From the NCBI RefSeq assembly GCF_011301715.1, contig NZ_CP049870.1, positions 62,001 to 126,000 of the forward strand: 64,000 nt of DNA, written 5' to 3'. The notes beneath the pieces were generated by a model. The model worked only from the letters and a program-made list of their open reading frames with translations, was not told where the DNA came from and ran no database searches. The stretch is from Sphingomonas sp. HDW15A. GTDB taxonomy: Bacteria > Pseudomonadota > Alphaproteobacteria > Sphingomonadales > Sphingomonadaceae. Below are positions 27,505-54,033 of this stretch, piece by piece (positions within the stretch are counted from its first letter, which is position 1; each line of letters opens with the position of its first letter). Position numbers and translations under genes: made by a program.

Positions 27505-28845
27505 TTGAACGTGACTCGCGCCGGACGCCTTTCGCGTCCGGCGCGTTTCATGTTGGCAGCCTTCGCTGTCGTGGTCGCGCAAGCGCCGCTGGCGAGCACG
27601 GCGTCGGCCTACGTCGCTGCCGAAGTCGCGGCGCCTTCCATTGAAAGTTTCTACGCTACGCGCGGTGGCCGGCTGATCTGGTTCGGTCCCACACTGACCG
27701 ACACCTCGGCTGCCACGGCGTTCATCGAACTGTTGCGAAGCGCCGATGCAGATGGGCTTAACCCGCAATCCTACCCGATCGCCGCCTTGGAAGATGCGAT
27801 ACGCGGCTTGCAGGCGAAAGATTTCCCGTCGATTGCGCGCGCGGACCGCCTGTTCAGCGAAGTCCTGGTCCGCTTCGCGCGCGACCTGCGCCGCGACTCC
27901 ACGGGTGAGATGATCTGGGTCGACCAGAGTCTAAGACCTGCCGCTGCGTCGCCCGAAAAGCTGCTCAATGACTTCGCCTCGGCAGGCTCTCAGCGCGAAT
28001 ACATCGCGGAAATGCGGTGGATGAACCCGGTTTACGTCGGACTGCGCGATGCTCTTCTGAGCGGCGGTCAGAAGAGCGGGCAGGACCAGGTTCTGCGCTT
28101 GAATCTCGAACGCGCGCGCGTACTTCCGATGCCGATCGGGCGCTATCTCATCGTCAACGCCTCCGCTGCCCGGCTGACGCTTTACGACGGTGCGCGCGAG
28201 GTCGACTCGATGAAGGTGGTCGTGGGCAAGCGGACCCAGGCCACGCCGATGATGGCGGCCTTTATTCGCTACACTTCCCTGAACCCATATTGGAACGTGC
28301 CGCCCGATCTCACTGCGGAGCGGATTGCTCCGAACGTTGTGAAAGAAGGCCTCTCCTATCTCGAGAAGAAGGGCTATCAGGTCCTGTCGAGCTGGGGCGA
28401 CGACGCCCGGATACTCGATCCCGCGACAATCGACTGGCAGACGGTCGCCGATGGCCGGGCGGAAATCCGGGTCCGCCAGCTGCCGGGCCCCGAGAACGCC
28501 ATGGGGCAGATGAAATTCATGTTTCCGAATTCGCAGGGCGTCTATCTCCACGACACGCCGCAAAAGGAGCTTCTTGCCGAGGCGTCGCGAATGTTCAGTG
28601 GCGGCTGTGTCAGGCTTGAAGATGCGCCACGCTTGGCTCGCTGGCTGCATGGCCGAGCGCTCGAACCCTCGGGGGCGGCGCCGGAACAGCATGTCGACAT
28701 GAAGGATCCGGTGCCGGTTTTCATCACCTATCTCACCGCCGTGCCGGAAGAGGGTAAGATCGCCTACTATCGCGATGTATACGGACGCGACGCACAGGCG
28801 TTAGCCAAGCTGGGCACTGGGTCGACGCTGGCTAGCCGGCACTAG
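27505..28845 (+). CDS. L,D-transpeptidase, YcbB/LdtD-like
   Basis: A 446-residue periplasmic enzyme that forms 3-3 cross-links or attaches proteins to peptidoglycan. The N-terminus has a basic stretch and a hydrophobic signal (MLAAFAVVVAQAPLAS). The YkuD catalytic domain lies at about residues 210-400; the motif FSGGCVRLED places the nucleophile at Cys368, and HDTPQKELL about 18 residues earlier fits the YcbB-type active-site lid. The start is a TTG with AAGGGT upstream; an ATG at 27550 would shorten the signal. It converges on the TonB-like gene with a four-base overlap. Confidence 0.9.
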   Translation: MNVTRAGRLSRPARFMLAAFAVVVAQAPLASTASAYVAAEVAAPSIESFYATRGGRLIWFGPTLTDTSAATAFIELLRSADADGLNPQSYPIAALEDAIRGLQAKDFPSIARADRLFSEVLVRFARDLRRDSTGEMIWVDQSLRPAAASPEKLLNDFASAGSQREYIAEMRWMNPVYVGLRDALLSGGQKSGQDQVLRLNLERARVLPMPIGRYLIVNASAARLTLYDGAREVDSMKVVVGKRTQATPMMAAFIRYTSLNPYWNVPPDLTAERIAPNVVKEGLSYLEKKGYQVLSSWGDDARILDPATIDWQTVADGRAEIRVRQLPGPENAMGQMKFMFPNSQGVYLHDTPQKELLAEASRMFSGGCVRLEDAPRLARWLHGRALEPSGAAPEQHVDMKDPVPVFITYLTAVPEEGKIAYYRDVYGRDAQALAKLGTGSTLASRH

Positions 28846-31830: not shown

Positions 31831-32447
31831 GGCTCGCAACCCTAGCGCCGAGTTACAGGGCGGCAATGGAATTCGGGTTTGGCGCCCTTCCGATGATCGC
31901 GACTCGGGAAATGACGATTGATTCGCTGCCACCGCGGGAGCCCAACGCCCCGGAATCGCTCATTTCGTCCCGATTCGGAACGCTGGACGGAATTTTTTCG
32001 CAGTGAAATTGCGGGCCGAGCGGACTCGTATTTCCTACTCAAAAATCTCTCTGTGCCCCGATTAACTTGTCATAAATCATCTTTGCAAAATTAACAGAGG
32101 TTTACCATACAACAACAAGACGATTACACGTCTAGTATTACTCACCTAAAAACTCGGCTATTCTCTCGTAGCATGAATAGCATCAGGCAAAGGCGCCGCG
32201 TGATCCCAACAATAGTAGTAGAGAAGTAGCCCAACGTTAATCATTTTTAGTTGAGATTGTAAAAGATTCAGATTCAAAACCGATCGTCTAACGCGCTCCT
32301 TCCGCTTGCTTTTTTTACGTTGCAGTGTTTGCTTCAACACGGATGCGGGAGACTTGAGCGAGCTGTTAACCATTCTTGGTTAACTGGCCCGACCCCTTTT
32401 CCCGCGAAACAGGACGGCTCCTCCGGGCGCCACGGCAAAGGTGGGTT
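31831..32447. other. Long AT-richer intergenic region before the adhesin gene
   Basis: About 617 bases with no credible gene, clearly richer in A and T from about 31990 to 32360 than the coding DNA on both sides. It separates the divergent monooxygenase and adhesin genes and so should hold both promoters. Seen in it are a short inverted repeat (AGACG-ATTACA-CGTCT, 32118-32133), a run of seven T near 32312, and the palindrome described separately. Its base composition would suit binding by nucleoid proteins or stress regulators; that is inference. Confidence 0.6.
32365..32384. promoter_or_regulatory. Perfect inverted repeat GTTAACCA-N4-TGGTTAAC, candidate operator
   Basis: Two perfect 8-base arms flank a four-base spacer, 64 to 83 bases before the adhesin start codon. 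The symmetry and position suit the binding site of a dimeric regulator. No T-tract follows, so a terminator is unlikely. The regulator is unknown. Confidence 0.45.
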
Positions 32448-35400
32448 ATGCGAAACGAAGATGCTTCCCAGGCGGGTCTGAACGAATCCGGCACGGTCAA
32501 CGCACGTGACGATGCCGACCACCTCGCGGCCAAGGATTTCGGTCCAGCCACTGGAAATCTCATCACCGGCGCGGGCACCATCAACGGTTCCGCAGGAACG
32601 GATATCGGCGGCGCCGATGCCAGGATCGTTGCAGTCGAGGGCTCGGGCGGATCCGACACCACTTTCTCCGCAGGGAAGCTCGAGGTCGCGGGCCAATATG
32701 GAACGCTGACGATCGATGCCGACGGCAACTACAGCTATGTCCGCAACGCGGGCACGCCAGCCGGCGTGTCCGACGTTTTCACCTACACGCTTCAGGGCCA
32801 GGGCGGCGCGTCCGATACCGCTAAGCTGATCATCAACATCGGCGATGTGCCGATGTTGGCGACCGATGGAACGCGCGTCATTCCAGGACCCGACGGGACC
32901 GTCGTACTACCCGCCGGCGTCGAGCTTTCCGACGTTCGCGTCGTTGGCCGCGACCTGGTCGTGACCCTACCCGACGGCTCGACGATGGTCATCGTCGATG
33001 GCGCGATTTTCGTTCCGCAGCTCGTCCTGGACGGCGTTGAAGTCCCGGCAAGCAACCTTGCCGCGCTTCTGATTGGCGCCGAGCCGACTCCGGCTGCCGG
33101 AGACCTTTCCCCGGCGCAGCAGAGCAGCGGGGGCAACTTCGCGCTTCCGCCGCCCCCGCTGGATCCGGGCGTTCCGCTTGGCGACCTTCTTCCTCCGACC
33201 GAGCTCACTTACACGCCGCCGGAAACTCAGGAACTGTTCGACGCCGTCGATAACGAGCCGGTAGCGGGAATCGCCTCGATCGCTCTCGATGACGACGACA
33301 TTCCGGGGCGCAACGGCAATCCCGGGGGCCCGAACGACGACGTTGGTAGCCCGAATGCGGCGGGCAGCGGGATCCTTCCCGGCTCAGACGGCGATGGCAG
33401 CCTTGAATGGGCCCTTCTGTCGAGCGGCGCACCGAGCGGCTTCAGCTACAATCTGCAACCCGACGGATCGATCCAGGTCGTCCAGGTGCAGGGCGGCAAC
33501 AATGTGGTCGTTCTCACCATCACGGTGAATGCGGACACCGGCGCGTACACGGTGACGGAAAATAACCCGATCCGGCACGCCACTGGTGATACCGAGAACA
33601 ACAGCATCTTCGTCATCAATTATTCCGTGACCGACGATGACGGCGACGTTGCGCTCGGCACTCTTACTGTCAACGTCGATGACGACACGCCGACGGTGAC
33701 CGTTGCAGCTGGTTCTGACGCAAACGTGCTCCTGACCACCGACGACGCCCAGACGATTGGGGCCGCCAGCGATACGGCCGTCAGTCTCGCCGATTTCAGC
33801 GGCGTATTCGGCGCGACGGTTGTGTCGGCCGGTGCAGACGGGCTCGGTGCTGGCTCGTCCAGTGCTTACTCTTTGAACATTACGGGTTCGGTCTCAGGGC
33901 TCTCGAGCCATGGAAATGCGATCAACCTTTTCATTCTGAACGGCGTGGTGGTCGGTACGACGGGCGGCCAGCCGGCCAGCCTTGCTGACGCCAACATTGT
34001 TTTCACCGTCTCGGTCAGCAACACCGGCGTTGTCACCCTGACGCAGCTTCAGCAGATCGATCATCCGATCGCGAGCGATCCGACTGCGACGGGCGCGCCA
34101 TTCGCCGACCATATCGTCAGCATGGCCGACGGCCTGGTAACCCTGACCCGTACGGAGACCGTGGTCGACAATGACGGCGACTCCGTCACTGGCTCGGCAA
34201 GCGTCAACATTGGTGCCAACCTGCGCTTCACCGACGATGGTCCGACGATCGACCCGACGCTGAACGAGGTCCGTGGCGCGATCGTGGATGAGAGCGCGCC
34301 TGTTTCTGCGGCGACGATCCCCTTGGTCGGCGGCTATACCGCCGGGGACGATCCGCATCTCGACGGTGGCCTTGCCATCGGCAGTGGCAGCACGTCCGGT
34401 GCAGTCATCGACGCCAACGCAGTGTTCGGGGCTGACGGCCCGGCCAATGGTGGCGGTGTTACCTATGCGCTCGATGTGCTGAATGCCGTCTCCGGGCTGG
34501 AGACTACGGAAGGCGTCGCGATCAACCTCGTCGAGCTTTCGAACGGTGTCGTGGTCGGTGTCGTCGACGGGACGACGACGGTTGCCTTCGCGATACAGAT
34601 CAACTCCTCAACGGGTGTCGTCACGGTCGAGCAATATCTCAGTTTGCAGCACCCGGAATTCCCGAACAATTACGACGAGTCGATCAATCTCAATGAAGGT
34701 TCGCTTGGCGTTACCGTCACGGCGACGGACTTCGATGGCGATACCGCGACTTCGCCAGCGATCGACATTACTCCGCTGATCGACTTCCGCGATGATGGTC
34801 CGTCCGTGAGCGCGACCCTCAATGCCCAGGCGACCGTGACTCTCGACGAGACCGGTCCGGGCGCGGCTGCGACCATCGCGCTTGGCGGCAACACCGCCGG
34901 CAACGATGAGGATGTGGCCGGTGCGGGTCCGATCTCGCGGGCGGTATCGGGCGCCGCGGTGCTCAACGTCGGTCCGCTGTACGGCGCCGACGGCCAGGGC
35001 ACGAGCGGCTATGTGATCACGGTTGCCAATGCGGCTTCGGGGGTGACCACCACCGAGGGCGAGGCGATCACGCTGGTCCAGCTCAATGCGACCACGATCC
35101 TCGGCGTCGTCGCCGCTGGCGGCGAGCATGCCGGCCAGGTGGCGTTCGCGATCCAGATCAACGGGACGACGGGCGCGCTGACGGTCGAGCAGTATCTGAG
35201 CCTCGATCATCCGGTGAACCCCAACCCCAACGATCCGCTGCAGCTTGCTGCCGGTGCGATCACGGCGACCGCGACGGTCACCGATGGTGACGGCGACCCG
35301 GCTTCCTCGGGTGCGGTCGACATCACCGGCCTGATCACGTTCCTGGACGATGGTCCGTCGGCGAACGCGACCCTCAATGCCCAGGCGACCGTGACTCTCG

Positions 35401-38400
35401 ACGAGACCGGTCCGGGCGCGGCTGCGACCATCGCGCTTGGCGGCAACACCGCCGGCAACGATGAGGATGTGGCCGGTGCGGGTCCGATCTCGCGGGCGGT
35501 ATCGGGCGCCGCGGTGCTCAACGTCGGTCCGCTGTACGGCGCCGACGGCCAGGGCACGAGCGGCTATGTGATCACGGTTGCCAATGCGGCTTCGGGGTGA
35601 CCACCACCGAGGGCGAGGCGATCACGCTGGTCCAGCTCAATGCGACCACGATCCTCGGCGTCGTCGCCGCTGGCGGCGAGCATGCCGGCCAGGTGGCGTT
35701 CGCGATCCAGATCAACGGGACGACGGGCGCGCTGACGGTCGAGCAGTATCTGAGCCTCGATCATCCGGTGAACCCCAACCCCAACGATCCGCTGCAGCTT
35801 GCTGCCGGTGCGATCACGGCGACCGCGACGGTCACCGATGGTGACGGCGACCCGGCTTCCTCGGGTGCGGTCGACATCACCGGCCTGATCACGTTCCTGG
35901 ACGATGGTCCGTCGGCGAACGCGACCCTCAATGCCCAGGCGACCGTGACTCTCGACGAGACCGGTCCGGGCGCGGCTGCGACCATCGCGCTTGGCGGCAA
36001 CACCGCCGGCAACGATGAGGATGTGGCCGGTGCGGGTCCGATCTCGCGGGCGGTATCGGGCGCCGCGGTGCTCAACGTCGGTCCGCTGTACGGCGCCGAC
36101 GGCCAGGGCACGAGCGGCTATGTGATCACGGTTGCCAATGCGGCTTCGGGGGTGACCACCACCGAGGGCGAGGCGATCACGCTGGTCCAGCTCAATGCGA
36201 CCACGATCCTCGGCGTCGTCGCCGCTGGCGGCGAGCATGCCGGCCAGGTGGCGTTCGCGATCCAGATCAACGGGACGACGGGCGCGCTGACGGTCGAGCA
36301 GTATCTGAGCCTCGATCATCCGGTGAACCCCAACCCCAACGATCCGCTGCAGCTTGCTGCCGGTGCGATCACGGCGACCGCGACGGTCACCGATGGTGAC
36401 GGCGACCCGGCTTCCTCGGGTGCGGTCGACATCACCGGCCTGATCACGTTCCTGGACGATGGTCCGTCGGCGAACGCGACCCTCAATGCCCAGGCGACCG
36501 TGACTCTCGACGAGACCGGTCCGGGCGCGGCTGCGACCATCGCGCTTGGCGGCAACACCGCCGGCAACGATGAGGATGTGGCCGGTGCGGGTCCGATCTC
36601 GCGGGCGGTATCGGGCGCCGCGGTGCTCAACGTCGGTCCGCTGTACGGCGCCGACGGCCAGGGCACGAGCGGCTATGTGATCACGGTTGCCAATGCGGCT
36701 TCGGGGGTGACCACCACCGAGGGCGAGGCGATCACGCTGGTCCAGCTCAATGCGACCACGATCCTCGGCGTCGTCGCCGCTGGCGGCGAGCATGCCGGCC
36801 AGGTGGCGTTCGCGATCCAGATCAACGGGACGACGGGCGCGCTGACGGTCGAGCAGTATCTGAGCCTCGATCATCCGGTGAACCCCAACCCCAACGATCC
36901 GCTGCAGCTTGCTGCCGGTGCGATCACGGCGACCGCGACGGTCACCGATGGTGACGGCGACCCGGCTTCCTCGGGTGCGGTCGACATCACCGGCCTGATC
37001 ACGTTCCTGGACGATGGTCCGTCGGCGAACGCGACCCTCAATGCCCAGGCGACCGTGACTCTCGACGAGACCGGTCCGGGCGCGGCTGCGACCATCGCGC
37101 TTGGCGGCAACACCGCCGGCAACGATGAGGATGTGGCCGGTGCGGGTCCGATCTCGCGGGCGGTATCGGGCGCCGCGGTGCTCAACGTCGGTCCGCTGTA
37201 CGGCGCCGACGGCCAGGGCACGAGCGGCTATGTGATCACGGTTGCCAATGCGGCTTCGGGGGTGACCACCACCGAGGGCGAGGCGATCACGCTGGTCCAG
37301 CTCAATGCGACCACGATCCTCGGCGTCGTCGCCGCTGGCGGCGAGCATGCCGGCCAGGTGGCGTTCGCGATCCAGATCAACGGGACGACGGGCGCGCTGA
37401 CGGTCGAGCAGTATCTGAGCCTCGATCATCCGGTGAACCCCAACCCCAACGATCCGCTGCAGCTTGCTGCCGGTGCGATCACGGCGACCGCGACGGTCAC
37501 CGATGGTGACGGCGACCCGGCTTCCTCGGGTGCGGTCGACATCACCGGCCTGATCACGTTCCTGGACGATGGTCCGTCGGCGAACGCGACCCTCAATGCC
37601 CAGGCGACCGTGACTCTCGACGAGACCGGTCCGGGCGCGGCTGCGACCATCGCGCTTGGCGGCAACACCGCCGGCAACGATGAGGATGTGGCCGGTGCGG
37701 GTCCGATCTCGCGGGCGGTATCGGGCGCCGCGGTGCTCAACGTCGGTCCGCTGTACGGCGCCGACGGCCAGGGCACGAGCGGCTATGTGATCACGGTTGC
37801 CAATGCGGCTTCGGGGGTGACCACCACCGAGGGCGAGGCGATCACGCTGGTCCAGCTCAATGCGACCACGATCCTCGGCGTCGTCGCCGCTGGCGGCGAG
37901 CATGCCGGCCAGGTGGCGTTCGCGATCCAGATCAACGGGACGACGGGCGCGCTGACGGTCGAGCAGTATCTGAGCCTCGATCATCCGGTGAACCCCAACC
38001 CCAACGATCCGCTGCAGCTTGCTGCCGGTGCGATCACGGCGACCGCGACGGTCACCGATGGTGACGGCGACCCGGCTTCCTCGGGTGCGGTCGACATCAC
38101 CGGCCTGATCACGTTCCTGGACGATGGTCCGTCGGCGAACGCGACCCTCAATGCCCAGGCGACCGTGACTCTCGACGAGACCGGTCCGGGCGCGGCTGCG
38201 ACCATCGCGCTTGGCGGCAACACCGCCGGCAACGATGAGGATGTGGCCGGTGCGGGTCCGATCTCGCGGGCGGTATCGGGCGCCGCGGTGCTCAACGTCG
38301 GTCCGCTGTACGGCGCCGACGGCCAGGGCACGAGCGGCTATGTGATCACGGTTGCCAATGCGGCTTCGGGGGTGACCACCACCGAGGGCGAGGCGATCAC

Positions 38401-41026
38401 ACTGGTCCAGCTCAATGCGACCACGATCCTCGGCGTCGTCGCCGCTGGCGGCGAGCATGCCGGCCAGGTGGCGTTCGCGATCCAGATCAACGGGACGACG
38501 GGCGCGCTGACGGTCGAGCAGTATCTGAGCCTCGATCATCCGGTGAACCCCAACCCCAACGATCCGCTGCAGCTTGCTGCCGGTGCGATCACGGCGACCG
38601 CGACGGTCACCGATGGTGACGGCGACCCGGCTTCCTCGGGTGCGGTCGACATCACCGGCCTGATCACGTTCCTGGACGATGGTCCGTCGGCAGTTGTCGC
38701 AGATGCGATCACGGCCGGTCTCACGAACGGCACCAATGATAGCGCGACCGCTTCGCTGGATATTGATGACGATGTCTTCAACAACTTCGGCGCAGACGGC
38801 GGCAAGGTCGTGTTCACCAATGCCACCATTACGTCACTGCAGGGCCAAAACCTGAAGTACAACGGTGTGGCATTAGAATACGCCATTTCTGCGGGTGGCC
38901 AACTTCTCACCGGCTACGTGGACGGGAACAATAACGACACGGTCGATGCTAACGAGACCGTATTCACCATTGAACTCCAGCCAGGAGGGTCGAGCAATTA
39001 TACCATCACGATGGTTCAATCCCTCGACACCGTCCAAAACATCGACTTCAATGGCGGAGGTTACAATTTCGTCGGAGGCAACGGCTCGTGGGCCGGTTTC
39101 ACCTCCGGTACCAATGGAGACGGCGTTCTCGATCTCTTGCTGACCCCAATGGTCAACGGGGCCAATTCCAGCACAATGAATACAAATGCCAACGAGGGTG
39201 GCGTCGGTTCCGGTAACTCTATCTCCTTCGGCGAAGGTGTCCGAGTCGACACGGTTCAGGATCTGCAGGCCGTCCCGGCCCCGACTCCCTCCGGCGATTA
39301 CGGCACTCTCGCGAATCAAAACCATGTGTTTGGACAACACGAAAATGTGCTTGGCATTTCGGCCGTAATAAGCACGGTCAACGGTCCTCCAGGATCGACC
39401 ACAAATATCACGATGATCGCTCGCGATGAGAGTGTGGCTTCAGACGCCAATGATTACGTCGGTGATGGCACGCAGGAGGCAATTACGGCCGTGGTGATCA
39501 CCCATGGGGCCATCACCACGACAGTCCTGAGAACCGATGGTCTCAACCAGAATGTTGTCGTTGATGGCATCTCATACAATGTTGTCTTCGGGGCGATGGA
39601 CGCGACTGTTAACGGGGTCGTCGAGGGCACCCGTATCGGCGCTGCCACAGCGGACGGGTTTGACAGCCTCGAATTCCGCAACGTCGGTGGACAAGAATTC
39701 AAGATCGGTGACTTCAACACGATAGCAATCACCAATGGTCCGATCGACTTTACCGTTCCGATTTCCGTCGTCGACGGCGACGGCGACACGGTCAGCAGCG
39801 GCAACCTCGCGATCCATGCGGATCCGGTTCCGCCGGTCGTGCTCGACATGGACGGTGACGGAGTTGAGTTCCTCGGCCTCGACGCCGGTGTCCACTACGA
39901 CTACGGCGCGGGTCTCGTAGCCACGGCCTGGGTCGGAGCGGACGATGCGATCCTGGTTCGCGATGCCAATGGCGACGGAACGGTCACGGATGCGTCCGAG
40001 TTCGTCTTCGGCGGCAATGGCGTTACAGACATGGAAGCGCTGCACGCCCAGTATGGCGAGCAGCTCGACGCAAGCGATGCCGACTTTACGATGTTCGCGC
40101 TGTGGACCGATGCCAATTCCAACGGCGTGGTCGATACCGGCGAAATGCAGTCGCTCGCCGAAGCCGGCGTTGTCAGCATCGGCCTGGTCAGCGACGGCGC
40201 AAGCTACACCGCCGCCAATGGCGATGTCGCGGTCGCCGGAAGCAGCACCTACACGATGGCTGACGGCTCAACCGGCACTGCTGCCGATGCCGCCTTTGCC
40301 ACTGGTGCGGCGAGAACCCAGGAAGTCGAACGGATTGCTGCCAACAGCAACACGACCGTCCTAGCCGCGGCCGTTGCCGCAGCTGGCATGGCGGCGAGCG
40401 CTGCGGCCGCAAGCCCAGTCGATACGCAGAATGCGGCACACAGCAACGCCGTCGTTTCCGTCGAGTCGATCAGCGTCGCTGCGGACCTCGCCTCGACCAC
40501 CTCGGTCCAGGCGCTGGCTGCAAGCTTCACCGATGCAGCCGCAACGGTCTCGGTCTCACTTGGAGATCAGGCGACGCTCTCGAGCGACTGGCATGCACCG
40601 ACGGGCGACATCGGCCAGTCGACCGGACTGGAGTCAGCGTTCAGCGCGCTCGCCGCTGGAACCGACGTCATCGAATCGCAGATGGCGTTGCCGGCCATGG
40701 CCACGACAGTCGCAATGCCGACCGCCGAAGCCATCATGGCGCTCGAAAATTCGCCAGCAGCGACGATCGACACGGTCGAACAGATCCTCGTCGATGCGCT
40801 GGCGGGTGGCGGCGTCAACCAGATCGATACGCTGATGAATGCCCTTCCGGACAACGGAAATGGCGGAATTGCGCAGATCGATAGCGCTGCAAGCGGGTTG
40901 CACGGCCTCGTTCCGACCTGGGACATGGGCGGAGATGCCGGATTTACGCCGGCGGTTCCGACGATAATCACGGCCGAAGCGATGATGCTTCACGTGGATG
41001 CAATCCAGCCTGTGGCCAACGGCTAA
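32448..41026 (+). CDS. Giant type I-secreted repeat adhesin (LapA/BapA-like), frameshifted in this sequence
   Basis: Restoring one G gives an uninterrupted protein of 2,859 residues. The ATG at 32448 has AAAGGTGG just upstream. Layout: residues 1-210, a beta-rich N-terminal region; PAAG at 215-218, a likely LapG cleavage site; a proline/glycine-rich spacer; two diverged repeats (about 33690-34790); seven almost identical 185-residue DUF5801-like repeats; a unique region; then Asp/Asn calcium loops (DMDGDGVEFL, DANGDGTVTD, DANSNGVVDTGE) near the C-terminus, as in T1SS substrates. The frame breaks at 35594-35597, where G4 replaces the G5 of the other copies. It heads the secretion operon. Likely role: cell-surface attachment and biofilm formation. 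Confidence 0.88.
34791..38674 (+). repeat. Seven tandem 555-bp repeats in the adhesin gene
   Basis: Copies begin at about 34791, 35346, 35900, 36455, 37010, 37565 and 38120. Each encodes 185 residues starting near DDGPS and ending near ITGLI. They are almost identical in DNA: copy 1 differs near its start (GTGAGC for GCGAAC), copy 2 lacks one G, and copy 7 has A for G at 38401. Such similarity implies recent expansion or gene conversion; copy number is expected to vary among strains. Confidence 0.97.
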
Positions 41027-41033
41027 ACCTGAC

Positions 41034-41060
41034 GCGGGTCCCTGGTGGACGGGGACCCGC
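41034..41060 (+). terminator. Strong hairpin between the adhesin and tolC genes (attenuator or stabiliser)
   Basis: GCGGGTCCC (41034-41042) pairs perfectly with GGGACCCGC (41052-41060) across a nine-base loop, just after the adhesin stop and 28 bases before the tolC ATG. It lacks a T-tract, so partial termination or mRNA end protection is more likely than a full stop. It could set the ratio of adhesin to exporter. Confidence 0.5.
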
Positions 41061-41088
41061 CTCAGACAGACCAGAGAAGGGGGAAGAC

Positions 41089-42561
41089 ATGAATAAGTAC
41101 TGGTATCTGATTGCCCCGGGTGCGCTGCTTGCTGCGGCTAGTCCGGCTTTCGCGATCGAACTGCGTGATGCGGTTCAGGCCGCGTTGAACACCAACCCGG
41201 AAATCCGTCAGGCGATCCACAACAAGCAGGCCACCCGCGAAGAGCGCGAGCAGGCCGAGGGCTTGTGGCTTCCACGCGTTTCGGTCGAGGCCGCAGCCGG
41301 CGCCCGTTATCTCAGCAATCCGACCCGGCGCAGCATTGGGCTGGATGACAATCAGTTGTGGCCGGTCGAGGGCAGCCTCACCGTTGATCAGCTTTTGTTC
41401 GACATGGGCGGCCGCGAGGCTGAAATCCGCCGCCAGGCTTCGCGAACCGACGCCGCCGCGGCCCGGATCGAGGAACGTTCCGAATATGTCGCGCTGAACG
41501 TGGCTCGCGCCTACATCGATTACCTGCTGCAGCAGCGGCTGGTTGCAATCGCCCAGGACAATGCGACGTTCCATGAACGCCTTGCCGGCGATCTTCGCGA
41601 AGGCGTCGCCAAGGGTTCGATCAGCATCGCGGACCAGCAGCAGGCTGAAGAGCGGCTCCAGTCGGCACGCGCGCGAGTAACCGAGGCGCGCGAAGACCTC
41701 GACACCGCAGCGATCCAGTTCCAGACACTTGCCGGCGTTCCGATCGACAGCGTGACGATGCCGCCGGATCTTTCGCAATATATGCCCGCGACCCTCCAGG
41801 AGGCGGAAGGTCTCGCTCGTCAGTACAATCCGCGAGTGCAGGAATCGATCGCCGATCTTTCGACGGCCCGCGAGGTCACCAAGGCCGCCAAGTCCGAATT
41901 GGGTCCACGCTTCAACCTCGAAGGCACGGCTCGCGTCGGGCATGACATCGACGGTTATGACGGCAAGACGACCGACGTACTTGGCCGCGTCGTCATGCGC
42001 TGGTTGATCTTCAATGGCGGGACCAACGTCCATAACGTTCGTGAGCAGCAGTCGCGTGCCGATGAAGCACATGCCCGCCTTTTCGAGATGACCCGCCGTG
42101 CGGAAGAAGATGCCCGCTCGGCCTGGAGCCGCCTGACCAACCAGAGCCGGCTGGTTACGGAGCTCGAAACGCAAGGCCGCGTCGCCGATGACCTGCTGCT
42201 GTCCTATCGCGAGCAGTTCAACGTCGGCCGTCGCTCCTTGCTTGACGTGCTCGATGCTCAGAACACGCGCTACAACGTTCAAGCTTCGGCCGAGACCGCG
42301 CGTCTCGCCAAGCTCTACGCGCAATATCGTGTGCTCGCATCGATTAACCGCCTGATCGAAGCGCTTGGAGTCAACATGCCGACCGAGGCGTGGAGCGACG
42401 AGCGCACCCAATACCGGGTGAACCCGATTCCGCCGGAGGATCTGCAGGAGAATAGCCTTCCGCAGCCCCTGATGGGACCGCCGGCCGCGCCGGTAAACGC
42501 TGCGGCTGCGCCCGCGCCGGCCGAAGCGCCGGTGGAGCCTGCTCCGACGGGCGGACAATAA
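41089..42561 (+). CDS. TolC-family outer-membrane channel of the type I secretion system (LapE-like)
   Basis: A 490-residue protein with signal peptide (PGALLAAASPAFA) and two TolC repeats, each ending in long coiled-coil helices (ASRTDAAAARIEERSEY, EQAEGLWLPRVS, NVRYN-like blocks). It would form the trimeric outer-membrane tunnel for the adhesin. The C-terminal 60 residues are a proline/alanine-rich tail beyond the family core. It lies 62 bases after the adhesin gene and 19 bases before the exporter gene, on the same strand, as in Lap and Bap operons. Confidence 0.93.
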   Translation: MNKYWYLIAPGALLAAASPAFAIELRDAVQAALNTNPEIRQAIHNKQATREEREQAEGLWLPRVSVEAAAGARYLSNPTRRSIGLDDNQLWPVEGSLTVDQLLFDMGGREAEIRRQASRTDAAAARIEERSEYVALNVARAYIDYLLQQRLVAIAQDNATFHERLAGDLREGVAKGSISIADQQQAEERLQSARARVTEAREDLDTAAIQFQTLAGVPIDSVTMPPDLSQYMPATLQEAEGLARQYNPRVQESIADLSTAREVTKAAKSELGPRFNLEGTARVGHDIDGYDGKTTDVLGRVVMRWLIFNGGTNVHNVREQQSRADEAHARLFEMTRRAEEDARSAWSRLTNQSRLVTELETQGRVADDLLLSYREQFNVGRRSLLDVLDAQNTRYNVQASAETARLAKLYAQYRVLASINRLIEALGVNMPTEAWSDERTQYRVNPIPPEDLQENSLPQPLMGPPAAPVNAAAAPAPAEAPVEPAPTGGQ

Positions 42562-42580
42562 GAGTTGAAGGGGACAAGGG

Positions 42581-44734
42581 TTGAGTTTCGTGCACTGGCT
42601 GGAATCCACGCCGTCGCGTGAGATCGACCCTGTCCTTGACTGCCTAGCCTTCCTCGCGCGCAGGTCCGACCGGCCGTCTTCCCCGGTTCTCCTGCGTGCG
42701 GGGTTGGCACTATCGGATAAAGGCACGCTGCCTTTCCACCAGGTTGAGCCCGCGCTCGATCAGGTTGGAATGCGCGGCGATCCGATGGTGCGTCGCCTGA
42801 AGGGCTGGCCGGTCCAGCGCCTCCCGGCAATTCTCGAACTCAAGGATGATCGCGCCGCAGTGCTGCTTGAGGTCAAGGGCGGTGACGGTCTCGTCTATGC
42901 GCCCGGTCTCGCCGAGGCGATGTGGGTCAAGCTCGACGATCTCCAGTCGGCATACACCGGCCGCGCGGTCGCCGTTGAGGCCGACCCGACGCGCGAGCGA
43001 GAGGGCGAGCGCCCGTGGGACAAGGCCAAGCGAACCCACTGGTTCTGGTCGGAGGTGTGGAAGGAGCGTCGCGAATTCTGGCCGGTGATGCTGGCTGCAC
43101 TGATCGTCAACCTGCTGGCTCTGGCCGTGCCGTTGTTCACGATGAACGTTTACGACCGGGTCATCCCTAACAAGGCGATTCCAACTTTGTGGGTTTTGGC
43201 CCTCGGTGTGGCGCTTGCGCTGGCGTTTGATTTTGCGCTTCGGATCGCGCGTTCGCGGCTGGTCGATGAGATCGGCCTGACTCTCGACGCAAAACTGAGT
43301 CAAAAGCTTTTCGAAAAAGTCATGAACCTGCCGATGGCGAGCCGCCAAGGCAGCACTGGCGCCTTGGCCAAGCGGCTTTCCGAATATGAGCTCGTACGGG
43401 ACTTCTTTGCTTCGACCACGGTGGTTTTGCTCGTCGACCTTAGTTTCCTGCTCCTCTTTCTGATCTTCATTACGGTGCTGGCTGGTTGGCTGGTCTTGGT
43501 GCCACTTGTCGGGATCGCGCTAATGGCGCTCGCCGGCTACTCGCTTCAGAAGAAGATGGGGCGAAGCGCCATCGACGCCCAAGCCGACGCCAGCCTGCAA
43601 CATTCGATGCTGGTCGAGTCCATTGGGGGGCTCGAGACATTGAAAGCCGCTCGTGCAGAAGGGCAGATGCTTGGCCGCTGGCGCCGCTATGCGTCAATGA
43701 GTGCCGCAACGCAGGAACACATGCGCCGGGTCACTGCAGTGGCGGTGAATCTTACGAGCTCATCTCAGCAGCTCATCAGCATCGGTCTGATCGTGGGCGG
43801 CTTCTATCGCTTCAATGCTGGCGAAATGTCGATGGGCGCCATCATCGCCATTGTCATGCTCGCCGGTCGTGCGATGTCACCGGTTGGGCAGTTCGCCTTC
43901 CTCATGACGCGCGCAAAGCAGGCTCTGACGACGATGAACTCCCTCCAACAGATGATGGAGGTCGAAGACGAGCGCCAGACCTCCGCGCGCTCGATCGTTC
44001 CGGAAATCCGCGTTGGCAAGATCGAACTCATTGACGTCGACTTCGCGTATCCGGGGGCCTCCGCGAACGCGCTCAACGGCGTATGCCTAAAGATCGAGCC
44101 GGGCGAGCGGATCGGCATCATCGGGCGAGTCGCTTCCGGCAAGTCGACGCTCGGACGAGTCCTTTGCGGTTTGTACACGCCCACAGGCGGAGTGATGACC
44201 GTCGATGGCCTCGACAGCCGTCAATATCATCCGCACCAGCTGCGTGACGAATTCCGTTTCGTTGCCCAGGATTCGGAGCTGTTTAGCGGCTCGGTTCGGG
44301 ACAACCTCATGCTTGGCGCTGCCCAGGCCGACGATCAGCAGCTGATCGATGCCGTCATTCGTTCGGGCGCCGACATCTTCCTCTCGCGCGACGCCGCCGG
44401 CTTCGATTTCCCGGTCGGCGAGCGCGGCACGCGTTTGTCCGGCGGGCAGCGCTCGCTTCTCGTGCTGGCCCGGGCGCTCGTCTCGCCATGCAAGCTCCTT
44501 TTCCTCGACGAACCCACGGGATCGATGGACACGCAGACCGAGAATTATTTCATCGAGCGACTAAGGAATGCGCTCACCCCGAAGCAAACTCTCATCGTCT
44601 CGACGCATCGTCATCAGATGCTGAACATCGTCGACCGGCTGATCGTCATCGACGGAGGCCGGATCGTCGCCGACGGCCCGCGCCAGGATATCCTCGGCCG
44701 GCTCGGCAATGTCGCCAAGGAGGCGAAGAAATGA
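42581..44734 (+). CDS. Type I secretion ABC transporter, permease and ATPase (LapB-like)
   Basis: A 717-residue inner-membrane exporter. The N-terminal 130 residues resemble a C39-peptidase-like domain without an obvious catalytic cysteine, as in exporters of RTX proteins. About six membrane helices follow (residues 165-430), then an ATPase with Walker A GRVASGKST at 515-523, signature LSGGQ at 619-623 and Walker B LLFLDEPT. Start is TTG with AAGGGG- and ACAAGGG-like ribosome sites upstream. It pumps the adhesin through the HlyD and TolC partners encoded alongside. Its stop overlaps the next gene's ATG (ATGA). Confidence 0.94.
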   Translation: MSFVHWLESTPSREIDPVLDCLAFLARRSDRPSSPVLLRAGLALSDKGTLPFHQVEPALDQVGMRGDPMVRRLKGWPVQRLPAILELKDDRAAVLLEVKGGDGLVYAPGLAEAMWVKLDDLQSAYTGRAVAVEADPTREREGERPWDKAKRTHWFWSEVWKERREFWPVMLAALIVNLLALAVPLFTMNVYDRVIPNKAIPTLWVLALGVALALAFDFALRIARSRLVDEIGLTLDAKLSQKLFEKVMNLPMASRQGSTGALAKRLSEYELVRDFFASTTVVLLVDLSFLLLFLIFITVLAGWLVLVPLVGIALMALAGYSLQKKMGRSAIDAQADASLQHSMLVESIGGLETLKAARAEGQMLGRWRRYASMSAATQEHMRRVTAVAVNLTSSSQQLISIGLIVGGFYRFNAGEMSMGAIIAIVMLAGRAMSPVGQFAFLMTRAKQALTTMNSLQQMMEVEDERQTSARSIVPEIRVGKIELIDVDFAYPGASANALNGVCLKIEPGERIGIIGRVASGKSTLGRVLCGLYTPTGGVMTVDGLDSRQYHPHQLRDEFRFVAQDSELFSGSVRDNLMLGAAQADDQQLIDAVIRSGADIFLSRDAAGFDFPVGERGTRLSGGQRSLLVLARALVSPCKLLFLDEPTGSMDTQTENYFIERLRNALTPKQTLIVSTHRHQMLNIVDRLIVIDGGRIVADGPRQDILGRLGNVAKEAKK

Positions 44735-45773
44735 CCTGGTTGCGCGCCCGATCCGCATTTTTCGAAATCCGTCGCTGGGTTCTCGCGGCGGGGCCCTTCT
44801 GGTGGCGCTGGCCTCCTTTGCGGCTGTTTCCCTGCTCGCGCTTCGCAGCGAGCGAGCCGAGGCCAGCGCTGTCGCGTCGGCCCAGGCCGCCAAGCTGGTC
44901 GAGGCGACGATCGACCATGCAAACGAGGTTCGGGCGGTTGGCGAAGATGCGAAGCTGATCAACGCGACCATGCCATTCAGTACGGCGCCAGTGCGTGCCG
45001 CCAATGCGTTTGTTATCCCGGCTGCCGATGAAATCGATCATCGCCGCGCTCTGCTGTGCCTGACCCAGGCCGTATATTATGAGGCTGGGTACGAGCCGAT
45101 CGCCGGTCGGCGGGCCGTCGCCCAAGTCGTTTTGAACCGGACTCGTCACCCAGCCTTCCCAAAGTCCGTCTGCGGCGTGGTATATCAGCGTAACTCGACG
45201 CCGATCTGCCAGTTTACGTTCGTTTGCGACGGCTCGCTCGATCGCCGTCCGGAGCCGGGCGCGTGGCGAATTGCACAGCAAATCGCGAGCGAAGCACTGG
45301 CCGGCTACGTCGAAAAGTCGGTCGGATCCGCGACCCATTACCACGCCGATTACGTCGCGCCGCGCTGGGCCCCGCTGCTGGCGAAGATCAGCAAGATCGG
45401 CGCACACATCTTCTACCGCTGGCCGGGCGCATGGGGCATGCCGGGCGCGTTCGCCGGCCGCTACATGGGCGAGCCGCGCGATCCTGCGACGATGCGTCCG
45501 CTGATCGTCCGCGTACCGGGCATCGATGGACAGACGATCGAACAAGTGACCGGCACCGGCCCAATTATCGACGGGACGATGCTTAAGCGCGCTCCGAACG
45601 ATGTCGGCGGATTGTTGGATACGTCGAAGGGCTGGACTTTGAACATTCCGTTGCCCTCTGAGGCGGGGTCCGCCACGCATGCCGTTGCCGAACGCCAGGC
45701 GAATGCCCCCGCGCCGGCCGAAAAGGCTCAAAATGACGCAGCCGCTCCAACCACCGTGCTCGCCTCGCGCTGA
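44731..45773 (+). CDS. SleB-type cell wall hydrolase, frameshifted near its start in this sequence
   Basis: The most likely start is the ATG at 44731: it overlaps the previous stop (ATGA) and has AAGGAGG at 44717-44723. That frame gives MTWLRARSAFF...WVLAAG and then leaves the protein; one G added to the G4 run at 44790-44793 continues into ALLVALASFAAVSLLALRS, completing a membrane anchor. The alternative ATG at 44709 reads through in one frame but lacks a ribosome site. The SleB-like hydrolase domain, about residues 95-240, contains CLTQAVYYEAGYEP, AQVVLNRTRHPAFP, CQFTFVCDG and GSATHYHADYV. It may open peptidoglycan for the secretion machine. Confidence 0.8.
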
Positions 45774-45792
45774 CAGGGTATAAAGAATCATC

Positions 45793-47052
45793 ATGGCTTC
45801 CACTGCGTTCATCCCGGAACTCGCCCGTCGGCATAGCGAGCTTAGCGGCTCCCGCCGGGTCATCATCTATTCTGCAGCGTTCTTCCTAGTTTTCCTGCTG
45901 TGGGCGAGCATTGCCCAAGTCGACGAAGTGACCAGCGGACAGGGAAAGGTCATCCCCTCCAGCAAGGTGCAGATCATCCAGTCTGCGGACCCGGCGACGG
46001 TCGCGGAATTACTTGTAAGGGCCGGCCAGCCGGTGAAGCGCGGCCAGCTTCTCGCCAGGCTCGACAATCCGGAGAGCCGCTCGATCCTAGCAGAGACTGA
46101 AGCGCTCGAAGCACGGGCCGCTCGTCTCGGCGCCGAAGGGTTGGGAACCTCGTCGGGAGCGCTCCAGGGCGAGGAAGCCGCGCTCAGCGAAGTACGGCGC
46201 CAGACCTTGTCTTCGCGGGTCAGCGCCCTGCGCGCTTCGGCGGAACAGCGCCGCCGCGAAGCCGCGGAAGCCAGCGCCACGATCTCGTCACTGTCCCAAA
46301 GCCTCCAATTGGCGCAGGAGAACGTGAACCGTCTCGCGCCGCTTGCCGCCAAGAATATTGTTCCGCAAACCGAACTTGCAACTGCCCAGCGCGAAGTCGT
46401 TGACCTGCGCGGCCGGATCGCTGCCGCGCGCGAGCAGCAAGGCCGGGCCATGGCTGCCGTCAGCGAAGCGCAGAGTCAGGCCAGCGAAGCGCAGTTCGAA
46501 TTTCGCAAGCAGGCGCTAGACGAGCGGAGCCAGGTTCAGCAGAAGATTGCCGTAAACCAGCAGTCGCTGCAGGGGCGGGGACAGTCCGGCCGGCTGGAAC
46601 TGCGCTCACCGGTAGATGGCGTCGTCAACGACGTGAAAGTCACGACCATCGGTGGTTTTGTCGCAGCCGGCGAAAAGGTAATGGAAGTCGTTCCGATGGG
46701 CGACAAGCTGCTGGTCGAGACGCGCGTCAAGCCCAGCGATATCGCCTTCATCAAGGTCGGCGACAAAGCGCTGGTCAAGGTGACGGCTTACGATTTCTCG
46801 ACCTATGGCGGGCTCGATGGGCGCGTCGTTCAGGTTTCCGCCGATTCCATTTACGATGAAGCCGAGCGACAGGCCTACTTCACCGTCATCGTCGAAACGG
46901 AGCGCAGCTACCTGCATTCCGCTGGGCGAAAGCTCCCGATTACGCCGGGCATGATGACCGATACCCAGATCATCACCGGGCGTAAAAGCATCCTAACATA
47001 TCTTTTGAAACCGCTTTCGAAAGCCCGGAGCGAAGCGCTTCGGGAACGCTAG
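45793..47052 (+). CDS. HlyD-family periplasmic adaptor of the type I secretion system (LapC-like)
   Basis: A 419-residue membrane-fusion protein. One N-terminal helix (VIIYSAAFFLVFLLWASIAQV) anchors it in the inner membrane; it is followed by DEVTSGQGKVIPSSKVQII, the conserved start of the lipoyl half. A coiled-coil hairpin spans about residues 100-260 and the C-terminal barrel contains GRVVQVSADSIYDEAERQAYFTV and the family ending TPGMMTDTQIITGRKS. It would bridge the ABC exporter and TolC channel. Last gene on this strand; it overlaps the convergent protease gene by four bases. Confidence 0.94.
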   Translation: MASTAFIPELARRHSELSGSRRVIIYSAAFFLVFLLWASIAQVDEVTSGQGKVIPSSKVQIIQSADPATVAELLVRAGQPVKRGQLLARLDNPESRSILAETEALEARAARLGAEGLGTSSGALQGEEAALSEVRRQTLSSRVSALRASAEQRRREAAEASATISSLSQSLQLAQENVNRLAPLAAKNIVPQTELATAQREVVDLRGRIAAAREQQGRAMAAVSEAQSQASEAQFEFRKQALDERSQVQQKIAVNQQSLQGRGQSGRLELRSPVDGVVNDVKVTTIGGFVAAGEKVMEVVPMGDKLLVETRVKPSDIAFIKVGDKALVKVTAYDFSTYGGLDGRVVQVSADSIYDEAERQAYFTVIVETERSYLHSAGRKLPITPGMMTDTQIITGRKSILTYLLKPLSKARSEALRER

Positions 47053-47942
47053 AAGGCGATCGAGACGACGACCGGATCGCCCGCCGCGACCTCCGCAGTG
47101 GCGACGATCTCAGTTGCCGGATTTGCGGCCGCATATTGGATCGCGGGCTCGTTCCCACGGCGATATCCGTGTGTCCAGCTGCGATCGCCGGAGAAAGTCA
47201 GGATCGGCCGGTATTCGGGGATGGAATCACTGTCGACGATCCGGTTCGTCCCATTGTCCAGCACAAGCAAGCGACCGTCGGCCCTGACGACCAAGACGGC
47301 ATGATCCGCCCGGCGACGGACATCGTGCAAGATTACGAGATAGAGATCTTTTTCAGCGAAGCCGGCATGACGAAGCAATTGCAGCTTTGCGATTGCGAAA
47401 TCCTCGCAGTCGCCACGACCGCGCCGAAGCGTTTCGCCTGCCGCAAGCCAGAGGTCGGCATAGCCGAACTGCCGCTTGTCGTTGGCGAATTGTACACGAG
47501 CGTTGACGAAGCGGTTGACGGCATCGAGCTGTTCGATCGCACCTAATCCCGAAAGACGCTTCACAAAGGCTGACGCTGCCAATCCGATCGGCATGCGCTC
47601 CACTTTCGCCCAGCGCCGCTCGAGCGGCGTGGTCCCAACAGCCAGTGCGACCGAGCCGAAAACATCGGGCCGATCATCCGGCACGATCCGGGGCGTGATC
47701 GGGACCATGCCTCGACTGTTTCCGTCGTAGCCAGCCGCGCCAGCAGTTACGTTCCGCGCGGCGCCCTGGCTCGCAAGAATGGCGGCGAGGCTGCTGGGCG
47801 CGCCAAGAATGGCTTCGGTCTTGCTATAGCTCGCGTTACGCGGTGCCACGGACGCCCCAAGAGGCAACTCGCCCGCAACCGCCGGAACGGAGGCGAGAGC
47901 CCATCCTGCGAGGGCAGCAGCGATGCGAACGGCGCGTTTCAT
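47049..47942 (-). CDS. LapG-like transglutaminase-type cysteine protease (BTLCP family)
   Basis: A 297-residue periplasmic protein with a signal peptide (RIAAALAGWALASVPAVAG). The catalytic triad of the BTLCP family is visible: Cys179 (GRGDCEDFA), His214 (RADHAVLVV) and Asp229 (LLVLDNGTN), with spacing close to that of Pseudomonas LapG. LapG cuts adhesins after a di-alanine near their N-terminus, releasing them from the cell. Here the gene sits convergent to the adhesin operon, whose product carries a matching PAAG, so that role is likely. LapG is normally held by LapD under high c-di-GMP; no lapD is in the window. Confidence 0.88.
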   Translation of the reverse strand: MKRAVRIAAALAGWALASVPAVAGELPLGASVAPRNASYSKTEAILGAPSSLAAILASQGAARNVTAGAAGYDGNSRGMVPITPRIVPDDRPDVFGSVALAVGTTPLERRWAKVERMPIGLAASAFVKRLSGLGAIEQLDAVNRFVNARVQFANDKRQFGYADLWLAAGETLRRGRGDCEDFAIAKLQLLRHAGFAEKDLYLVILHDVRRRADHAVLVVRADGRLLVLDNGTNRIVDSDSIPEYRPILTFSGDRSWTHGYRRGNEPAIQYAAANPATEIVATAEVAAGDPVVVSIAF

Positions 47943-53490: not shown

Positions 53491-53964
53491 CTAGTCGCCG
53501 CCACTCCCGAGATCGACGAACGGCGCGAACTTGACCTCGCGCTTGACGAAACTTGTCTCGTAGCGGTGTACGGAACTGTCCGACGCGAACAGCTCTTCGG
53601 CCAGCGCTACGAAGTCGTCCATGCTCGGGCAGTCGAGCAAGACCGCGAGATCATGATTGCCGCTGATCTCGTAAGCGAACTGAACTTCCGGCGTGTCATT
53701 TAATCGTCGTTGCAAGCGGTCTTTCCCTTGCTGATCGGCATGCTCCGCAAGCTGAACGAAAACCAGCGCGCGAAGCCGTCGTCCCGTGAGCTGCGGGGAG
53801 AGCAGGGCAATGGTCTTCGCGACCCAGCCTTCCGCCCGCAATCGGCGAAGCCGGCGCGCAATGGCGGACGGGGACAGCGGTACATGCGCGGCGATCTGGT
53901 CCGCGGTCAGCGAATCGTCGGTCTGAACCAGATTGAGCAGGATTCGGTCGAACCGGTCGATCAT
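53491..53964 (-). CDS. Lrp/AsnC family transcriptional regulator
   Basis: A 157-residue regulator. Residues 1-60 form the helix-turn-helix (FDRILLNLVQTDDSLTADQIA, then LSPSAIARRLRRLRAEGWV); residues 65-150 form the RAM ligand-binding domain, including FAYEISGNHDLAVLL. Such proteins respond to amino acids. It is divergent from the two S41 peptidase genes with 100 bases between, and the gap contains a palindrome that could be its binding site, so it may control itself and the peptidases. The start MIDRFDRILL is preferred over the longer frame from 54015. Confidence 0.88.
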   Translation of the reverse strand: MIDRFDRILLNLVQTDDSLTADQIAAHVPLSPSAIARRLRRLRAEGWVAKTIALLSPQLTGRRLRALVFVQLAEHADQQGKDRLQRRLNDTPEVQFAYEISGNHDLAVLLDCPSMDDFVALAEELFASDSSVHRYETSFVKREVKFAPFVDLGSGGD

Positions 53965-54033
53965 GCGCACGACGCTGCCAAAATTTGGCACGCCGCGCAC
54001 GAAAATTGCGCGCATCTGGCGATGGAAATGCTG

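Follow-up and report, generated by a model that had tools for sequence, protein, structure and literature searches.

How a sphingomonad might hold a giant adhesin at its surface and later let it go is the question raised by a locus of Sphingomonas sp. HDW15A, contained in a stretch of 64,000 nucleotides that is called here the window (bases 62001-126000 of a 2.34-Mb genome on a single contig). Most of what is understood about regulated adhesin release comes from Gammaproteobacteria, where it proceeds via LapD and cyclic di-GMP (c-di-GMP). A 2026 paper on Desulfovibrio describes it as much less known outside that class (PMC13090378). Between positions 32448 and 47942, the window carries genes for a giant repeat adhesin, a TolC-family channel, an ABC exporter, a SleB-type cell wall hydrolase and an HlyD-family adaptor on the forward strand, with a LapG-like cysteine protease gene convergent on the reverse strand (Table 1). 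We propose that this cassette encodes a variant, without LapD, of the Lap-type two-step system of surface adhesin release, and we give this reading a probability of about three in four. Many members of the window's family carry the cassette, but the receptor known from such systems was not found.

The six genes, described before in a reading made from the DNA letters alone (hereafter the sequence-only reading), were confirmed at their places and orientations by reading frames and family scans. The adhesin matched DUF5801 (PF19116) and T1SS_rpt_143, and its C-terminal part gave matches upstream of TolC in many relatives. The exporter reached 786.7 bits with TIGR03375 (cut-off 693.1) and the adaptor 339 bits with TIGR01843 (cut-off 208.65), while the channel was above the cut-off of PF02321 (OEP) and, with 222.8 bits, slightly below that of TIGR01844 (225.15). 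The protease matched Peptidase_C93 (PF06035, below C93) with 67 bits against a cut-off of 27. By comparison with solved structures, it matched only two distinct PDB sequences at E <= 0.01, both of them LapG (4u65 and 4fgo), and C179, H214 and D229 as well as the calcium-site residues D178 and E180 were aligned with functional residues of both. This bears out the convergent bacterial transglutaminase-like cysteine protease (BTLCP) with an intact Cys-His-Asp (C-H-D) triad that had been noticed from the sequence. The triad was kept in all 44 cassette proteases of our tree set and by the cassette protease in each of the 36 genus genomes having one, and D178/E180 were also conserved among the cassette proteases.

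LapG substrates are reported to combine a beta-type retention domain with a targeting helix and a DP motif, and to be cut between the two alanines of [T/A/P]AAG (PMC13090378), and in Vibrio FrhA the LapG site reads PAAG (PMC6890996). In the adhesin of the window, VPASNLAALLIGAEPTPAAG was followed by a short linker and then by SSGGNF, and an EP step stood ahead of PAAG in the segment EPTPAAG (33081-33101, forward strand). An AlphaFold2 model built with 31 rows showed a beta domain with block means of the predicted local distance difference test (pLDDT) of 91-94 over residues 11-70, then a helix at residues 68-77, from which point on the confidence dropped and no secondary structure was seen around PAAG. 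The order of beta domain, helix and unstructured PAAG segment is the one described for LapG substrates. Where one would be expected, the adhesin then has a conserved candidate LapG site, which the sequence-only reading did not include.

The conservation of this site was seen in three sets of sequences, which overlap. Ahead of SSGGNF, [T/A/P]AAG was present in 26 of 33 N-termini, the window included; in the scan of named genomes, whose patterns did not contain the motif, it was present in 19 of 19 loci (18 by script and one, L172, by eye); and among 129 homologous proteins, it was present in 103 of the 120 listed (101 by script, two by eye). The background of the motif, 59 in 75,375 and 90 in 113,430 residues, amounts to 1.3-1.7% per 20-24 residues. 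Of the 101 positives found by script, 87 had an aspartate or glutamate followed by proline ahead of the motif. In four adhesin N-termini (L082, L085, L128 and L129) PEAG stood in place of PAAG.

The arrangement was then compared across relatives, as the sequence-only reading had suggested. In a profile search of 296 genomes of the order, PF06035 was present in 141. The matches listed for the order were 150 of C93 and 90 of TIGR03375, the latter covering their profile from the beginning, since exporter matches that set in far inside it were dropped. Among them, at least 62 C93 genes, in 62 genomes, were located within 15 kb of a full-length exporter, and all 62 were convergent with it; 61 of these genomes belong to the family of the window and one to another family. 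For 28 listed exporters no C93 partner was seen, in some cases through short contigs. Considering the 23 genus members in the sample, the exporter was over its cut-off in 19 of 19 with C93 and in none of the four without, counts that are not independent events because the species are related. TolC, ABC, HlyD and protease genes were found in 17 of 17 same-genus loci, and the full order with the hydrolase in 16, the hydrolase being missing at one locus (L072). In 20 loci of other genera, chosen for an exporter near the protease, the hydrolase stood between the ABC and HlyD genes in 19; the exception (L087) is from another family. The hydrolase, which the sequence-only reading had described as an addition, is a regular member of the cassette. 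A first scan of named genomes, for which the protease served as query, turned up no relative. The gene order is not due to chance and recurs in relatives, and the strong protease-exporter link is the opposite of the lack of correlation that the sequence-only reading had named as evidence against itself.

This link also bears on whether the protease acts on the adhesin at all. A BTLCP can act elsewhere, as HvyA does in Caulobacter (PMC4241560), and the protease of the window might be directed to surface polysaccharide export or to another envelope protein, its proximity to the exporter being incidental. Taking into account that all 62 listed exporter neighbours are convergent, that PAAG is conserved in the adhesin and that exporter and C93 are present or absent together in the genus sample, we regard this as very improbable. 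C93 proteases of the order located away from such exporters were also collected (L097-L110).

The sequence-only reading had described a repeat adhesin, and the giant adhesin is indeed present, but as assembled it is not one open frame. Two frames cover it (32376-35600, 1074 codons, and 35597-41026, 1809 codons), and its start is most likely at 32448, which is supported by relatives that start with MRYDDAS or MRYEDAS. The tandem array consists of six full, mutually identical copies of 555 nucleotides and a partial copy of 323 nucleotides with one mismatch, with an older copy of 80.6% identity upstream. One repeat spacing is 554 instead of 555, and this breaks the frame near 35597. It could be thought that this strain has an adhesin pseudogene in decay and is losing the cassette, for which the break itself would speak. 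Against this, the two halves stay open over their whole lengths, the remaining five genes have open frames that match their families over the full length, and the adhesin is a single frame of 2804-3594 codons in all nine of the 17 same-genus loci where it was fetched whole (it leaves the fetched stretch or contig in six, and unread bases interrupt it in two). Assembly errors are common in arrays of identical repeats. At least three other genes of the genome are frame-split in the same assembly, with indels that are either real or from the assembly: the EAL pieces of a GGDEF-EAL gene (C1:1309344-1310047, in the region C1:1309344-1310593), a second GGDEF-EAL gene with a membrane-spanning N-terminus (C1:48414-50749) and an outer-membrane-protein-like gene (C1:50909-51750). 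Because the break falls within identical repeats and other genes are also split, an assembly error is the likely cause, and decay of the adhesin gene seems improbable to us. An open frame of 991 amino acids that runs antisense over the array is most likely not a gene but a side effect of the GC-rich tandem repeat.

A key aspect of the locus is how the protease would be controlled. The sequence-only reading suggested the same c-di-GMP control as in Pseudomonas, with LapD lying elsewhere in the genome or replaced. A profile search with the LapD N-domain (PF16448) gave no match in the genome and none over the cut-off in the 296 genomes of the order, where two weak matches remained below it. Fourteen named control genomes gave no match either, and a positive control was therefore needed. 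It was provided by a sample of 249 genomes of the phylum, in which a strong match was defined by E under 1e-20: all 49 genomes with a strong match also had C93, and such matches were found in 49 of 68 C93 genomes of other classes versus none of 35 in the class of the window, where 12 of the 35 had weak matches. In six genomes compared, the C93 and PF16448 matches started 598-714 bp apart. With the control working, control through LapD as in Pseudomonas is not supported. We do not claim that LapD is absent from all Alphaproteobacteria, since LapD-like genes have been reported in some Bradyrhizobium and Mesorhizobium clusters (PMC7730722).

The genome held ten EAL matches, two of them halves of one gene, and eight GGDEF matches. 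When the frames behind the ten EAL matches were read by eye, no LapD-like periplasmic part or architecture was seen, and the search for a LapD-like GGDEF-EAL protein with a periplasmic domain that the sequence-only reading had proposed found none. Neither PF16448 nor a reading of the frames that gave the EAL and GGDEF matches supports a LapD elsewhere in the genome. One form of replacement would be a full Lap circuit in which c-di-GMP acts through an unrecognised inner-membrane receptor other than LapD, for which DvhD of Desulfovibrio is a precedent (PMC13090378). It is notable that c-di-GMP signalling exists in the genome, as the EAL and GGDEF matches show, and that two of the four LapG positions cross-linked to LapD (V205 and Y206; PMC4359373) correspond here to the hydrophobic I247 and L248; the other two are not kept, A169 being D213 and Y176 falling in a gap. 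The only periplasmic domain seen among the EAL proteins was CHASE2, in a protein with a degenerate GGDEF and an EAL domain (C1:720050-722338). As a stand-in for LapD this candidate is weakened, because its gene is present in 68 of 71 genus genomes, with or without C93; its EAL motif also looks intact by eye. A receptor with HD-GYP (PF13487) or dCache_1 (PF02743), as in Desulfovibrio, gave no match in the genome, and the nine flanking genes scanned for a regulator beside the protease included none related to c-di-GMP. Taken together, we hold a hidden receptor of this kind to be possible and rather unlikely.

Another candidate came from the C93 family itself. The second C93 protein of the genome (C1:2149179-2149886, reverse strand) has GDSED where active members have GDCED. 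C93-like proteins are encoded in 37 of 71 genus genomes, the scope to which all counts of such paralogues refer; a paralogue without the cysteine was found in 23 of them, a second C93 with intact triad in four and a single match in ten. In these dead paralogues, the cysteine is replaced by S, A, D, E, M or T and the histidine is often lost too. The cassette protease stands beside HlyD in 36 of the 37 genomes, the 37th (G571) being a 69%-complete genome, and a dead paralogue is present in 22 of the 36 cassette genomes versus one of the other 35. In four genomes (G289, G570, G547 and G542), dead and active gene share a strand, the dead one standing 5', with starts about 1.3-1.6 kb apart. One genome (G555) has two active cassette-type proteases (L200 and L201), each beside an HlyD gene, which suggests two cassettes.

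A tree built from 80 C93 proteins placed the 23 dead proteins in one clade, for which a single loss of the cysteine is needed (support of 93 in the Shimodaira-Hasegawa-like approximate likelihood ratio test, SH-aLRT, quick search), and this clade was also recovered with the active-site columns masked; its sister active group is less certain, with a support of 95 in the first tree and 42-44 in the second. The ratio of nonsynonymous to synonymous substitution rates (dN/dS), calculated over ten species pairs, was 0.13-0.31 for dead and 0.13-0.35 for active genes; most dS values were above 1, near saturation, and the least saturated dead pair (dS 0.75) gave 0.18. Overall, the conservation of the dead group is close to that of the active enzymes. 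A signal-peptide-like N-terminus was recognised by eye in 22 of the 23, D178 was kept in 23 of 23 and E180 in 78%, and 19 residues reached 85% in the dead but not in the active group (two gap columns dropped), several of them being the same residue at lower frequency in the active group. Considering that HvyA C192S/A (PMC4241560) and DvhG C317A (PMC13090378) are non-functional, it is fair to infer that the dead paralogue has no catalytic activity. Its profile is that of a maintained pseudo-enzyme and not of a decaying gene. In three genomes (G154, G170 and G235; loci L111, L198 and L199), a C93 gene with intact C-H-D is located near genes of an Atm1-type ABC transporter and PlsC, at the locus that carries the dead paralogue in other species, and it is possible that this is the ancestral active form.

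The dead paralogue is the only tested candidate whose distribution follows the cassette, and it is the best candidate controller found, missing from 14 of the 36 cassette genomes. Our tentative proposal is that it might stand in for LapD: the pseudo-protease, once secreted, would bind the adhesin helix and AAG site, or the active protease, without cutting, and would shield the adhesin until levels shift. We see this as a doubtful proposal at present. If it is true, release would be controlled by a periplasmic pseudo-enzyme rather than by a membrane c-di-GMP receptor. It could also be that processing is constitutive, the protease trimming the adhesin with no inhibitor devoted to it, while expression, calcium or secretion rate set the release. 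No inhibitor is encoded in the cassette, the single C93 of the ten genomes with one match is always the cassette protease, and the calcium-site residues are conserved, all of which agree with this option. It is less easy to reconcile with a strongly conserved N-terminal domain, given that surface retention would be pointless under continuous release, or with dead paralogues conserved in 23 of 37 genomes, and we consider it possible at well below even odds.

Returning to the Lap-type system without LapD, the following working can be proposed by homology to LapA and LapG and from the conserved site. The LssB-type ABC transporter together with HlyD and TolC would export the giant adhesin with its C-terminus first, and the N-terminal beta domain would plug TolC in the periplasm and keep the adhesin attached to the cell. 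Peptidoglycan would be opened for assembly or passage by the SleB-type hydrolase, which probably makes room there. The calcium-dependent LapG-like protease would dock on the helix, cut at PAAG and free the adhesin. Its control may be constitutive, may go through a receptor or may depend on the dead paralogue, which would either compete for helix and site or bind the protease; none of these is strongly favoured. Cleavage, retention, the role of the hydrolase and the control of the protease are all what we infer from sequence. Because the cassette is conserved, the protease triad intact and the candidate LapG site conserved, a releasable LapA/LapG-like adhesin module is well supported. These same three points sustain the near-complete Lap-type module of the sequence-only reading, except for its LapD and c-di-GMP control.

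Several observations weigh against the proposed system. The protease scored 71.4 bits with the NCBIfam LapG equivalog NF045674, whose cut-off is 320, and other BTLCPs have other targets, as the capsule in the case of HvyA (PMC4241560). The adhesin is frame-broken in this assembly. No such exporter was seen close to 88 of the 150 listed C93 genes, some of which are on short contigs. The strict motif is missing in 7 of 33 and 17 of 120 N-termini (PASG, PAGG, PAGP, PEAG and others), and it was part of the queries by which both sets were collected. Sequence and fold searches tied the retention domain to no solved structure, without a clear match. An NCBIfam scan of the adhesin N-terminus matched no retention-module model; further upstream, residues 47-161 gave 77.8 bits with a BapA/Bap/LapF adhesin model, below its cut-off of 180.

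Table 1. Positions of the cassette genes and of features within them (window coordinates).
Feature	Position	Strand	Remarks
Giant adhesin gene, whole	32448-41026	+	in two frames as assembled
Adhesin, 5' part	32448-35600	+	N-terminal VCBS-like, retention-module-like and T1SS-143/DUF5801 domains; frame stops within the repeat array
Retention-module-like beta domain and helix (predicted)	32877-33077	+	beta domain to about 33056, helix about 33048-33077; AlphaFold2
Candidate LapG site PAAG	33090-33101	+	predicted scissile Ala-Ala
Tandem repeat array	35040-38691	+	repeats of 555 nt (185 aa, DUF5801)
Antisense open frame	35564-38539	-	991 aa, over the repeat array
Adhesin, 3' part	35597-41026	+	repeats, Ca-binding-like region, C-terminal part with presumed type I secretion system (T1SS) signal
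TolC-family outer-membrane channel	41089-42561	+	LapE-like; PF02321, 164 bits
Type I secretion ABC exporter	42581-44734	+	LssB/LapB type; TIGR03375, profile positions 1 to 692
SleB-type cell wall hydrolase	44709-45773	+	PF07486 (Hydrolase_2), 96 bits
HlyD-family periplasmic adaptor	45793-47052	+	LapC-like; TIGR01843
LapG-like BTLCP cysteine protease	47049-47942	-	signal-peptide-like N-terminus

Around the cassette, the nine flanking genes scanned included those of an L,D-transpeptidase (27505-28845) and an AsnC-type transcription regulator (53491-54015). The protease gene has the exporter on one side and, on the other, genes of an alpha/beta hydrolase, a 2Fe-2S protein, an RcnB-domain protein and a DUF885 protein; it is not in a capsule export locus.

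Each part of the system belongs to a known family. The combination of no LapD found, a hydrolase in the operon and a conserved dead protease was not met in the literature searched, which left most subscription journals outside, and seems new; within the same literature, neither a sphingomonad LapG system nor a dead LapG paralogue was met. With the conserved cleavage motif, protease and substrate can be tested directly in vitro, and the conserved dead protease, which makes the question of control concrete, would add a pseudo-protease to bacterial surface control. By comparison with HvyA of Caulobacter crescentus (PMC4241560), the protease of the window likewise comes from an alphaproteobacterium and combines the BTLCP triad with a signal sequence and predicted calcium residues, but it stands at a type I adhesin exporter, whereas HvyA belongs to a capsule export locus and prevents capsulation. 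The DDxP/T1SS clusters of Bradyrhizobium and Mesorhizobium (PMC7730722) also pair type I adhesin-like proteins of Alphaproteobacteria with neighbouring BTLCP genes; unlike the window, some of them are reported to carry LapD-like genes, and neither a hydrolase nor a dead protease paralogue is mentioned in the available text. In the Dvh/Bfs system of Desulfovibrio vulgaris (DvhA, DvhG, DvhD; PMC13090378), a LapG-like protease that cuts [T/A/P]AAG is the feature shared with the window, and LapD is replaced by DvhD, an HD-GYP protein with dCache, of which no counterpart was found here; no dead paralogue is described for it in the available text. From the Lap system of Pseudomonas fluorescens (LapA, LapB/C/E, LapG, LapD), the window differs in that no LapD family domain was found, the protease gene is convergent, a SleB-type hydrolase is in the operon, no retention-module model was matched in the NCBIfam scan, the repeats are of DUF5801 and a dead protease paralogue is in the genome. 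It shares with that system a giant type I-secreted adhesin, an LssB-type exporter with HlyD and TolC, a BTLCP with C-H-D and calcium residues, and an N-terminal candidate site of the [T/A/P]AAG type.

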